Positions 8,053 to 14,814 of a stretch of 64,000 nt of DNA are shown here, in pieces. Each line of letters begins with the position of its first letter. Within the stretch, counting starts at the first letter, position 1. The notes under the pieces were generated by a model. That model saw nothing but the letters and a program-made list of their open reading frames with translations, made no database searches and was not told where the DNA came from. The DNA is from Sphingomonas sp. S2-65. Lineage in GTDB: Bacteria; Pseudomonadota; Alphaproteobacteria; Sphingomonadales; Sphingomonadaceae. Both the position numbers and the translations under genes were made by a program. The stretch covers positions 1,607,001-1,671,000 of the forward strand of contig NZ_CP090953.1 of assembly GCF_021513175.1 (NCBI RefSeq), in the 5' to 3' direction.

Positions 8053-8315
8053 CTACAGCAAGCTGGCCTGCGCGCCCGGCTGGTGCGAGGCCCGGGTCTC
8101 GACGCGCGCCGCCCGGCGATTGGGGCTCACCAGCGGCGGCAGCTTGGGCTTCACTCCCCGGAACAGCTCCGCCAGCGTGAAAATCTGCAGCCGCGGAAAG
8201 CGGCCAAACTCCATCTCGGCCAGCCCGTGCGCCGCGGCTTCTTCCTCCATGCCGCGCGTCGGCAATCCGGCACAAACGAACAGCCCCAGGCTATGCTTGT
8301 CCCGCTGCATCACGC
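8053..8315 (-). pseudogene. Detached C-terminal part of methyltransferase-nuclease fusion
   Basis: After the TGA at 8310-8312 of the methyltransferase frame, the protein similarity continues in another frame: VMQRDKHSLGLFVCAGLPTRGM, then FPRLQIFTLAEL. This is the standard continuation of the Mrr-like restriction-endonuclease tail of this family (in relatives, a segment on precedence of methylation-related nuclease residues such as R-D-L-x-x-V then PTRPM and PRLQILT). Adding one base near 8312-8315 would join the frames. The fragment has no start of its own. Either a one-base deletion or a sequencing error is responsible. Confidence 0.7.
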
Positions 8316-9665
8316 CCAAAGCTCGCGCACCATTGCCGGGTTGATGTGGTTGCCGGCCTTGACGGAGATCACCCCCGTCTCGGCCTTGGCGCCGCGTCCG
8401 AGATAATAGAAATACCCGTCGACGCCCTTGTCCCCGCCCTTCTTGCCGCCCATCCACGGCCACCCACCCAGCTTCAGCGTGATCCACGCCTGGAACTGGT
8501 GCGGATCGTCGCGCGCGAGCCGCTGGGCCGAGGCGAGGTCGCGCGGCACGCCCACCGTCTCGAAGTCGACGCCGTCGCCATAGCCCTCCCGCAGCCGCTT
8601 CTCGATCAGCCCGATCGCCAGATGCGTGACGTCAATCCCGATCCACCGCCGCCCCAGCTTCTGCGCCGCATCGACGGCCGTGCCGCACCCGCAGAACGGG
8701 TCGAGCACGACATCGCCGGGATTGGAGGAGGCGGCGATGATCCGCTCGAGCAGGGCGCGCGGCTTCTGGGTGGGATAGCCGAGCCGCTCGGCGCTCGCCG
8801 CCTGTAGCGGTGGCAAGTCAGTCCAAACGTCTGCCAGCTTTCGGCCGCCTTGCTCACGAAGGTAATGCTTTCGAGCTATCCGCCCGTCGTGCGATCGAGG
8901 AAACGCTAGCCGCCCCTCCGCCTCGAGCCTTTCCATCACATTCCGGCTAACTCGCCAGCCCTTTGCGGGCGGTAGGTAGCCGTTGTATTCGTACGTCAAA
9001 TTCGGTCGCGGATTTGGGCTGTCCAAGGGCGCGAGACGATAAGGGCCTCGACCATCTTGGTCATCCAGTCGAAACCGGGCAGTATACGCCTCGTCTTTGA
9101 TCGCGAAGACGGGCCTCATCTGCGCCAGTGCTGATTTAGCATAGAACAAGACCGTGTCGTGAACGGCACCAAACTTGTTCTTCGCATCGCCCTTAGCAGT
9201 CGTCCGCTGCCAAATGATCTCGTTCCTGAAATTGTCGGCCCCGAACACCGCGTCCAGAACCCACTTTAAATAGTGGCTCGCCGTCGGATCGCAGTGCAGG
9301 TACAGGCTCCCGGTCGGCTTCAGCACCCGGTGCAGTTCCACCAGACGCACCGCCATCATCGCCAGATAAGCCAGCATCGCGTTGGTGCCGATCGACGCGC
9401 GCATCGCCTGCATCAACGTATGCAGCGCATGGTTGCCGCTATGGGTGATGTCGAGCAGCGCCTCCTCGGCGGCAGGTCCCCACACCCACGTGTCGTCGAA
9501 CGCCTCGATGCTGGCGTCGGCGCCTGAACCCGTCGGCGACTTGAACAGGATATTGTAGCTGGCGTTCGAATTGAACGGCGGGTCCAGGTAGATCAGGTCG
9601 ACGCTCTCGTCCGGAACATGCTCGCGCAGCACGTCGAGATTGTCTCCATAATAGAGCTGGCTCAC
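8310..9665 (-). CDS. Beta-class DNA methyltransferase, nuclease tail frameshifted
   Basis: A site-specific DNA-methyltransferase. From the GTG at 9665 (GGAGAG 8 bases upstream) it begins SQLYYGDNLDVL. The catalytic DPPF is at residues 28-31 and the SAM-binding DPFCGCG lies near residue 320, so the motif order is that of beta-class N4-cytosine/N6-adenine enzymes. The C-terminus enters a PD-(D/E)xK-like nuclease domain (KKGGDKGVDG, then VISVKAG) but stops early at 8310. The remainder lies in another frame to 8053. The central target-recognition part (about 8820-9240) is lower in GC than both ends. It is divergent from uvrA, with a LexA box 56 bases upstream of the start. Confidence 0.85.
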   Translation of the reverse strand: MSQLYYGDNLDVLREHVPDESVDLIYLDPPFNSNASYNILFKSPTGSGADASIEAFDDTWVWGPAAEEALLDITHSGNHALHTLMQAMRASIGTNAMLAYLAMMAVRLVELHRVLKPTGSLYLHCDPTASHYLKWVLDAVFGADNFRNEIIWQRTTAKGDAKNKFGAVHDTVLFYAKSALAQMRPVFAIKDEAYTARFRLDDQDGRGPYRLAPLDSPNPRPNLTYEYNGYLPPAKGWRVSRNVMERLEAEGRLAFPRSHDGRIARKHYLREQGGRKLADVWTDLPPLQAASAERLGYPTQKPRALLERIIAASSNPGDVVLDPFCGCGTAVDAAQKLGRRWIGIDVTHLAIGLIEKRLREGYGDGVDFETVGVPRDLASAQRLARDDPHQFQAWITLKLGGWPWMGGKKGGDKGVDGYFYYLGRGAKAETGVISVKAGNHINPAMVRELWA

Positions 9666-9720
9666 CGCGTCGTCTCTCCAATGACGGGACACGGTGCGAG
9701 GCGGTACTCGATCAAAACGT

Positions 9721-9735
9721 GAACGGTTGACGAAC
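9721..9735. promoter_or_regulatory. LexA (SOS) box, distal
   Basis: A perfect GAAC-N7-GAAC, the reverse complement of the alphaproteobacterial LexA operator GTTC-N7-GTTC. It lies between the methyltransferase start (9665, minus strand) and uvrA (9929, plus strand), 56 bases from the former. It would allow LexA to control the methyltransferase, or to act jointly with the proximal box on uvrA. Confidence 0.75.
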
Positions 9736-9906
9736 ATTGTCCGTTACGGAGCGGCGCTCCCCTCCCCAAGACCCCACAACAGCATGGGCAGCGAGGGCCC
9801 GCAGGCCAGAACAGGTAGGTTCGTTTCGGGTCTTTCGGTTCGCCAAGTCACCGCGCTGGCGAAAGTGGATCCCCCTCCCTATCTCACCCCTCTGGAACTC
9901 CCTTCG

Positions 9907-9921
9907 GAACAAAGCTAGAAC
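9907..9921. promoter_or_regulatory. LexA (SOS) box at uvrA start
   Basis: A second perfect GAAC-N7-GAAC, ending 7 bases before the uvrA ATG at 9929. Its position directly over the start region is fit for repression of uvrA by LexA. It supports 9929 as the start region and suggests the transcript begins close to the coding region. Confidence 0.75.
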
Positions 9922-9928
9922 CCACCGC

Positions 9929-12970
<3,042 letters not shown>

Positions 12971-12973
12971 GAC

Positions 12974-13696
12974 TTACTCTGCCACGCCCTTCCTTGCTGC
13001 GAGTTCACGGAGGATGATTGGAACAGCGTCGTCTAGCGCATTGCCATAGCAATCAAATTGTCGCCGCAACTCATCGTCGGTAAGAAGCCAAGTTTTATTA
13101 ACCCATACTTCTCTCACTTCGCGCACACTCTTGGAGAACCGTAATCGCGGCACAAACAGGATGAGCGCGTCCGAACCCTCAAAATCTTCTTGCGTCAAAA
13201 TCACGCGCTGAATCATAGTAGCGAGAAGACGTTTTTGAAAATCGCTCAGAGAGACCGACGACCAGCCAATGATAAAGACAGGAGTTAGCTTCCCCTCCCG
13301 ATTGTAAACAAAGGTGGGGCGAACCGGTATCGTGATATTTCGACCAATCGGATAGCGCTCGATCATGCCATCAAACGCTCTGAGGCCTTTGATGCCATTC
13401 TTGTCTAGCCATGGCAGCAGGGCGGTAGCGATTTCGTGGCCCAGTTTACGAACTAAAGGATCAAGAATCAGATTGATTCCGCTCCGGGTAGTTGCAGCTG
13501 AAACACCAAGGGTCACGTAGTCCGCTACGAGCCTGTAAATCTGCGCAAGCGCATGTCGGGGCTTAGCCAGCGCAAACCTTGTGATGCGCAACGTCGTCTC
13601 GTCACGGCGACGATCATTCAAGCGAACCCAATTGGCCAGCGAGGGTGGCCGCCGCATTTCTTCAACACGTTCTTGGGCAGTCTTCGACTTCTTCAA
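12974..13696 (-). CDS. Unrecognised protein, putative toxin partner of Panacea antitoxin
   Basis: A 240-residue protein with no family I recognise. It is rich in basic residues at the N-terminus (MKKSKTAQERVEEMRRPP) and has an alpha/beta middle (PVFIIGWSSVSLSDFQKRLLATMIQ, then SDALILFVPRLRF). It shows no signal peptide or obvious membrane helix. The start is TTG at 13696, overlapping the stop of the Panacea gene, with GGGAGG 5 bases upstream. Low GC and A/T-ending codons mark it as recently acquired. Panacea-domain proteins usually neutralise an adjacent toxin, so this gene is the natural toxin candidate. It is convergent with uvrA, 3 bases away. Confidence 0.65.
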   Translation of the reverse strand: MKKSKTAQERVEEMRRPPSLANWVRLNDRRRDETTLRITRFALAKPRHALAQIYRLVADYVTLGVSAATTRSGINLILDPLVRKLGHEIATALLPWLDKNGIKGLRAFDGMIERYPIGRNITIPVRPTFVYNREGKLTPVFIIGWSSVSLSDFQKRLLATMIQRVILTQEDFEGSDALILFVPRLRFSKSVREVREVWVNKTWLLTDDELRRQFDCYGNALDDAVPIILRELAARKGVAE

Positions 13697-14226
13697 TCGT
13701 GCCTCCCGCCACCAGCTTCCATTAGAAGAGACGGACTAATCTCCATCCCCGGATTCGCATGTCCTTCGTACCACCAAACTCGATACCATGCACCATTACG
13801 TTCATGCGACAAAGCGCGAAGCTCAGCTGCGCTGTGAAACATCAACGGAGTGATTACTTCTCTCAAGAAGCTCTCTTCTTGGTCTGATAAGCAAATCAGC
13901 GCCTCTTGAAACTCCTCCGACGCGGTCGAGAAGACCTTCGCGCGGCCGAGGACTGAGCCATTGCCGTAGCTTTTAAAGCTTTGATATAGCTCCCTAAATA
14001 CCGGGCCATGCTCCCAGGCTTCAATCTTGGCGTTCGTTAGTAGTTGATCACGTTTGAGTAGAAATGCCTCAACTGCGAAGAACGCCAGCTTGTTGATACC
14101 CATGTTGGTATGTCGCACGCCGAGTTGCTCAGCATAGTCTAATATCCAATTGGCTAGCCCCCTGACGCTGTGGCCGAGTCGTTGCGGCCCCTGGTAGGCA
14201 TCACCGGGTTCTCGATCCAATCTCAT
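13693..14226 (-). CDS. Panacea-domain (DUF4065/SocA-like) antitoxin
   Basis: A 177-residue protein. The core VRGLANWILDYAEQLGV...NMGINKLAFFAVEAFLL, then IEAWEHGPVFRELYQSFK, and SAAELRALSHERNGAWYRVW, is the Panacea/DUF4065 (GepA, SocA) pattern. This domain is known to serve as a versatile antitoxin against many unrelated toxins. It is the first gene of a two-gene unit, its stop overlapping the TTG start of the next gene. Its GC is lower than the surroundings. The start at 14226 is the first ATG of the frame; a later start that keeps LANWILDY is possible. Confidence 0.8.
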   Translation of the reverse strand: MRLDREPGDAYQGPQRLGHSVRGLANWILDYAEQLGVRHTNMGINKLAFFAVEAFLLKRDQLLTNAKIEAWEHGPVFRELYQSFKSYGNGSVLGRAKVFSTASEEFQEALICLSDQEESFLREVITPLMFHSAAELRALSHERNGAWYRVWWYEGHANPGMEISPSLLMEAGGGRHD

Positions 14227-14260: not shown

Positions 14261-14584
14261 TCATATGACTTCGATATACCTCTCAGAAGCAGCCAGCAAT
14301 CGTTGCACCTGATCCCAGCGGGCCTCCAACCAAGCAAGTAGCGCTCGGTTCGTCGCATTCCCACAGCGCAGCCACACGAACGCAAACCGATCGGGCAGTC
14401 GCAGCGTGACGAAATCCTCATCCTTGCTGACCAGCACCGCGCCGTCCGCTTCAGCCCGAGCCGCAATATCGGCGTCGCTCGCTGCCACCATGCCGATCTC
14501 GAACACATGCTCCGCCTCATGGCCACGCTCGCGCAACCACCCGCACAAAGCGGGCGGCAGTTGCGCGTCGACCAGGAACTTCAT
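14261..14584 (-). CDS. DUF5615 PIN-like toxin
   Basis: A 107-residue protein with the PIN-like fold of DUF5615: N-terminal FLVDAQLPPAL (first acidic residue), D-A-DIAARAEADGAVLVSKDEDF (DxDF second acidic site), and a following LRLPDRFAFVWLRCGNATN. Such proteins are predicted ribonuclease toxins of type II modules. It overlaps the upstream DUF433 gene by 4 bases (ATGA), the usual order of antitoxin before toxin. Confidence 0.8.
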   Translation of the reverse strand: MKFLVDAQLPPALCGWLRERGHEAEHVFEIGMVAASDADIAARAEADGAVLVSKDEDFVTLRLPDRFAFVWLRCGNATNRALLAWLEARWDQVQRLLAASERYIEVI

Positions 14585-14814
14585 TCGGCGGCGAGCACTA
14601 CCGGATGGTCAGCCTGCCGCGCGGCATAGGCAAGCACCGCCCGCACATCTTCCTCGCTGAGGTAGGGAAAGTCCCCGACGATCTCGCCCGGGCTGGCGCC
14701 GCCCGCCAGCATCTCGAGCACATCGGTCACCCGAACACGGGTACCGGCCACGATTGGCCTGCCTCCGCACACCAGCGGATCGACTGCGATGCGGGGAAAG
14801 CCAGCCAGCGTCAT
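14581..14814 (-). CDS. DUF433 antitoxin
   Basis: A 77-residue DUF433 protein. IAVDPLVCGGRPIVAGTRVRVTDVLEML, then EIVGDFPYLSEEDVRAVLAYA, gives the family pattern (G-RP-I-GTR, and F-P-L-EDVRA-L-YA) of a small winged-helix antitoxin. It is coupled to the DUF5615 PIN-like gene. It likely represses its own promoter in the stretch 14815-14870. Confidence 0.85.
   Translation of the reverse strand: MTLAGFPRIAVDPLVCGGRPIVAGTRVRVTDVLEMLAGGASPGEIVGDFPYLSEEDVRAVLAYAARQADHPVVLAAE

Follow-up and report, generated by a model that had tools for sequence, protein, structure and literature searches.

What kind of protein is made by the gene that follows a Panacea gene in Sphingomonas sp. S2-65? The two genes lie on the minus strand of a 64,000-nucleotide stretch of this genome (contig NZ_CP090953.1, positions 1,607,001 to 1,671,000), hereafter called the window. 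An initial annotation paired the Panacea antitoxin gene with an unrecognised 240-residue protein and proposed that the latter may be a new toxin class. We consider it probable that the two genes form a chromosomal panAT pair of the SocAB kind, in which a tail-less, SocB-like and probably non-cutting nuclease-fold toxin is held by a SocA-like PanA. SocAB is a type VI toxin-antitoxin system of Caulobacter crescentus, represented by the NCBIfam models NF047746 (SocB) and NF047745 (SocA). The features of the pair are as follows.

12974 to 13696, minus strand: PanT candidate, a 240-residue SocB-like partner, assigned from the open reading frame, homologue search, profile-profile comparison and a predicted PD-(D/E)XK-like fold with a degenerate active site; isoelectric point (pI) 10.1.
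13693 to 14226, minus strand: PanA, a 177-residue stand-alone Panacea (SocA-like) antitoxin with the GPV motif, assigned from PF13274 (51.9 bits), the SocA model (97.6 bits), alignment and tree.
13693 to 13696, minus strand: four-nucleotide TTGA overlap of the PanA stop codon TGA and the PanT start codon TTG, read from the sequence.
13702 to 13707, minus strand: GGGAGG, a ribosome-binding-like site of panT within the end of panA, read from the sequence.

PanA matches the Pfam model SocA_Panacea (PF13274) with an E-value of 1.7e-13 and a score above the cut-off of 25.7 bits. The GPV signature of Panacea is present as EAWEHGPV, and GPV occurs in all 14 PanA rows of the partner family in the alignment (for the role of the motif, see the accessible part of PMC8832971). 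The partner gene starts with TTG at 13696-13694, five bases after GGGAGG, and GGGAGG is likewise followed by TTG at the panA end of a related locus from Sphingomonas sp. Leaf20 (L001). The overlap, the site and the start codon had been read correctly in the initial annotation, which gave no strand. Both genes are low in G+C (partner 0.519, PanA 0.522; whole window 0.67), as the initial annotation had noted for the partner gene.

Among 5.8 billion proteins, 84 including the partner itself belong to its family at an E-value of 0.01 or below, and a profile search that scored the 8000 best candidates yielded 150 relatives, the best 120 of which were listed. These sequences show that the partner represents a genuine gene family, most of whose members seen here come from sphingomonads. 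Counting the own genome, it is present in 9 of 397 sampled genomes of the family and 5 of 201 of the genus, in two of 296 genomes sampled from the order (its own and another member of the same family), and in one of 289 and one of 299 in the class and phylum samples, the own genome in each. As to a phage or plasmid origin, a tblastn search of 50,697 phage and 72,556 plasmid records gave no match, and a pattern-based scan of viral contigs returned three stretches and no confirmed relative. A Panacea gene lies directly upstream of the partner, on the same strand, in all 14 distinct loci including that of the window; these comprise all genome matches, with a contig-end fragment containing a stop excluded (L010) and two loci on contigs of equal length counted once (L001 and L019). 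The likely partner start falls between about -20 and +18 nucleotides relative to the end of the upstream Panacea gene. The co-occurrence of the two genes, put forward in the initial annotation as a check on the pairing, held at every one of these loci, so that its refuting condition, homologues that mostly lack Panacea neighbours, does not apply, and the antitoxin-first order and coupling are indeed those of panAT pairs. Hence a panAT pair is likely; like the pairs described in the accessible parts of the panAT studies, it combines a Panacea domain with GPV, two close or overlapping genes and an antitoxin-first order kept across species (PMC8832971, PMC10440598). At 29 of 29 other uvrA ends, from a search of 60 other genomes of the genus, the pair is absent within about 1.5 kilobases, and it is therefore accessory.

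On its own, the partner sequence has no match up to an E-value of 10 in Pfam, PADLOC, NCBIfam or PHROGs, and the best of the PDB sequences is no better than 0.18. The earlier statement that it matches no toxin family consequently stands for the single sequence and fails at the level of profiles, where a remote relation to SocB appears. With hhalign, the alignment between a partner-family profile (139 proteins) and a SocB profile (120 proteins) scored 38.5 over 189 colinear columns, compared with maxima of 24.0 in 40 shuffles of the SocB columns and 23.4 in 150 shuffles of the partner columns (190 in total), and with 16.1 and 17.0 for the reversed profiles. One member of the partner family (L011) reaches 14.2 bits with NF047746 (E 0.017).

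The antitoxins and their neighbourhoods point in the same direction. Panacea genes occur in 25 of 199 genomes of the family, 24 of them above the cut-off, and make up 27 loci; 22 of these matched the PanA profile and had their neighbours listed, and five are untyped (L073, L080, L081, L083, L084). The partner at L076 is a true SocB (248.6 bits with NF047746, cut-off 210), and that at L062 is an intermediate, with matches to SocB at an E-value of 7.4e-5 and to the window family at 4.1e-6. In a maximum-likelihood tree of 33 of the 34 antitoxin rows (OTH_L078, which lacks GPV, was left out, and L071 forms a very long branch), the 14 partner-family PanAs form one clade (support 95/96), beside which the SocB-type and intermediate antitoxins group together (83/78); the two are joined at 86/86, the last two supports being moderate. 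Both are separate from the antitoxins of ten membrane-type partners. Of 13 partner-family loci (L012 was outside this search), six have the ribonucleotide reductase beta gene nrdB immediately before the pair and on the same strand, as do L062 and L076; four of the 13 adjoin uvrA and three are at neither gene. Across the 27 Panacea loci, nrdB is near five of six SocB-superfamily loci vs none of the 21 others, five of which are untyped.

Predicted structures add a further line. The AlphaFold model of the partner, a check also suggested in the initial annotation, has a predicted local distance difference test score (pLDDT) of 94.7, and that of SocB reaches 90.7; the two have a common order of elements. 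Among the fold matches listed from the PDB, most are PD-(D/E)XK nucleases of the RecB/Cas4/lambda-exonuclease type, at sequence identities of 4-14%, and the partner is predicted to have the PD-(D/E)XK core fold. However, unlike in such nucleases (the AdnA nuclease domain, RecE, Dna2, MGME1 and Cas4), the partner lacks both the (D/E)xK of the active site and the acidic residue on the preceding strand: it has [KR]PT at columns 126-128 and GW[AST] at columns 144-146, where (D/E)xK is expected, these columns being assigned by element order rather than by residue-level superposition. In SocB the motif is reduced to (D/E)xR.

Taken together, the profile-profile score, the intermediate L062, the antitoxin tree, the nrdB position and the predicted fold indicate that the partner is probably a remote, unnamed branch beside SocB rather than a wholly new toxin class, so the novelty initially proposed was not borne out. 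In both systems the Panacea antitoxin gene comes first and the toxin gene second, the toxins are of similar length, their profiles align colinearly with the same predicted fold and order of elements, the antitoxin clades adjoin, and the nrdB-adjacent position is common to both in sphingomonads. The window pair differs in lying under both curated NCBIfam cut-offs, PanA scoring below the 190 bits of NF047745. The partner also lacks the (D/E)PR motif and the conserved C-terminal tail of SocB, and its family is more basic (median pI 9.39 vs 7.85). The tail, a G followed after one or two residues by GP[LF], is present in 77 of 121 SocB rows vs none of 139 partner rows; it falls in a low-confidence stretch of the SocB model, and the partner model ends in a helix. 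Several observations weigh against the assignment to the SocAB kind. No single-sequence comparison links the two families directly, the window partner has no match with NF047746 (cut-off 210 bits) up to an E-value of 10, and the true SocB at L076 scores 23.2 with the partner profile, which is not significant. The loss of the tail, in addition, speaks against assuming the sliding clamp as the target.

The same absence of matches in four libraries and PDB sequences, and of a significant direct comparison with SocB, would be expected if the partner were a wholly new toxin class whose weak similarity to SocB arose by chance among small alpha/beta proteins. We regard this as very unlikely, as largely separate lines concur, namely a profile score above all 190 shuffles, L062, the antitoxin clades, the nrdB position and the predicted element order. 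That the partner is an active DNase or RNase, with an unusual site formed from K/R126, T128, Q154, S175 and R192, is unlikely as well. The predicted nuclease-type fold fits such an enzyme, and these residues are conserved across the 139 partner-family rows (R192 is invariant, K/R126 is kept in 135 and T128, Q154 and S175 in 131 each). Altered motifs also occur in some PD-(D/E)XK enzymes. Against this stand the core strands, which lack a conserved acid: no column between 110 and 160 is D or E in 60% of the 139 rows.

The pair might also not be a toxin-antitoxin system at all and instead form a regulatory or adaptor complex, with a Panacea sensor and a DNA-binding partner subunit tied to nrdB or to repair. 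The recurrent site directly 3' of nrdB (6/13 loci) or by uvrA (4/13), the basic partner and a sensor role proposed for Panacea in the accessible part of PMC10440598 are in keeping with this. The patchy occurrence in the family (9/397) and genus (5/201) and the absence at all 29 other uvrA loci fit a mobile accessory pair better, and we think a regulatory complex quite unlikely.

For a panAT pair of the SocAB kind, we infer from what was computed here, namely the pair, its conservation, the remote SocB homology, the predicted fold and the loss of the motif, that the partner would be toxic and that PanA would neutralise it; replication as the target is suggested by the homology with SocB. The toxin would most likely act by binding and not by cutting, because the catalytic motif is gone, with GW[AST] in place of (D/E)xK. 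According to the accessible parts of the SocAB studies, SocB binds DnaN, the sliding clamp, suppressors map to the hydrophobic pocket of the clamp, and SocA hands SocB to ClpXP (PMC12795458, PMC9690074, PMC5812544, PMC5422525). Plausibly, the partner would target the replication fork or the sliding clamp, as SocB does, or, given its pI of 10.1, DNA directly. The acidic PanA (pI 5.8) would most likely bind and neutralise the partner, or pass it to ClpXP like SocA. The most economical account would be a toxin with a nuclease fold that does not cut but blocks replication, or a DNA process related to it, and is bound by the acidic PanA.

A wider hypothesis, to which we give somewhat less than an even chance, is that SocB and the sphingomonad partner family form a superfamily of replication toxins derived from RecB/Cas4-type nucleases without catalysis, in which a fold that binds DNA ends or forks was turned into a blocker neutralised by one Panacea lineage, the window branch being tail-independent. 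If so, the tail-less branch may grip the fork by its nuclease-fold body or have a new target in replication or repair. A relative that keeps the antitoxin lineage and the predicted fold but not the tail allows one to ask which part of SocB is toxic, the nuclease fold suggested for SocB is a testable idea on the origin of these toxins, and one Panacea lineage would have kept its toxin through deep divergence. Very few toxin-antitoxin systems target the sliding clamp directly, SocB being the first described, as far as the accessible part of PMC12795458 states. The panAT studies have 88 toxin clusters (PMC8832971, PMC10440598), and the partner may be an unnamed cluster among these. No match in the libraries or among the PDB entries listed links it to the PanT types named in the accessible parts of these studies (membrane, RNase, toxSAS, Fic/Doc, cyclase and GAF/FtsL-like). 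A literature search, mostly outside subscription journals and supplementary cluster lists, listed no paper on the partner family or on a PD-(D/E)XK fold for SocB.

Several other assignments were considered for the partner. A membrane toxin was rejected, as hydropathy averaged over 19 residues peaks at 1.04 in the partner and does not exceed 1.6 in any of the 89 rows of alignment A2. A GAF/FtsL-like toxin as described for Gelidibacter in the accessible part of PMC10440598 was considered for its length, and a MazF/PemK-like RNase from a short strand resemblance; neither fold is among the matches listed. The stretch Q[FV]xx[FY] (213-217) resembles the clamp-binding motif QL(S/D)LF but lies inside a predicted helix (207-239) and was not used. 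One protein of the family, L008 (the same gene in L026), ends in EQDDLFR, near the same clamp motif, and is alone among the 139 in having LF within the final six residues.

Among the other Panacea loci, the partner at L070 (L070:1877-2662, plus strand, 261 residues) contains a stretch, DGVPIIPLLQPRK, that by eye resembles DGQPIVPFIDPRR of SocB; its profile score of 22.2 is inside the shuffle range. Short partners with hydrophobic stretches, recognised by eye and probably membrane-type PanTs, are found at 10 of the 22 loci (L060, L061, L063, L064, L066, L069, L077, L079, L082 and L086). SocB-superfamily panAT pairs directly 3' of nrdB (L020, L023-L027, L062 and L076) may share a ribonucleotide reductase operon, and that at L024 overlaps the nrdB end by four nucleotides. 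In some partner-family PanAs (L012, L022 and L028, the last being the locus of L009), the N-terminus is extended by a region with a stretch resembling DIDTSDIPE..DW, which may be a second antitoxin segment.

Consensus scans of the pair region returned promoter-like and terminator-like sites at about shuffle level (2 vs 1.2 and 3 vs 2.1, respectively). The pair ends three nucleotides from the end of the convergent uvrA (9737-12970), on the far side of which a 475-residue N6/N4 DNA methylase (PF01555) is encoded at 8310-9737 on the minus strand. In another genome of the family, a stretch with uvrA (L084) contains a Panacea match below threshold (21.6 bits, covering model positions 1-35), perhaps the remnant of a pair at the equivalent site. 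On its other side, the window pair starts 34 nucleotides 3' of a DUF433/DUF5615 pair (14261-14814), which is on the same strand as panA. This DUF433 gene (14581-14814) and PIN-like DUF5615 gene (14261-14584), directly 5' of panA, probably constitute a second, tandem toxin-antitoxin pair.
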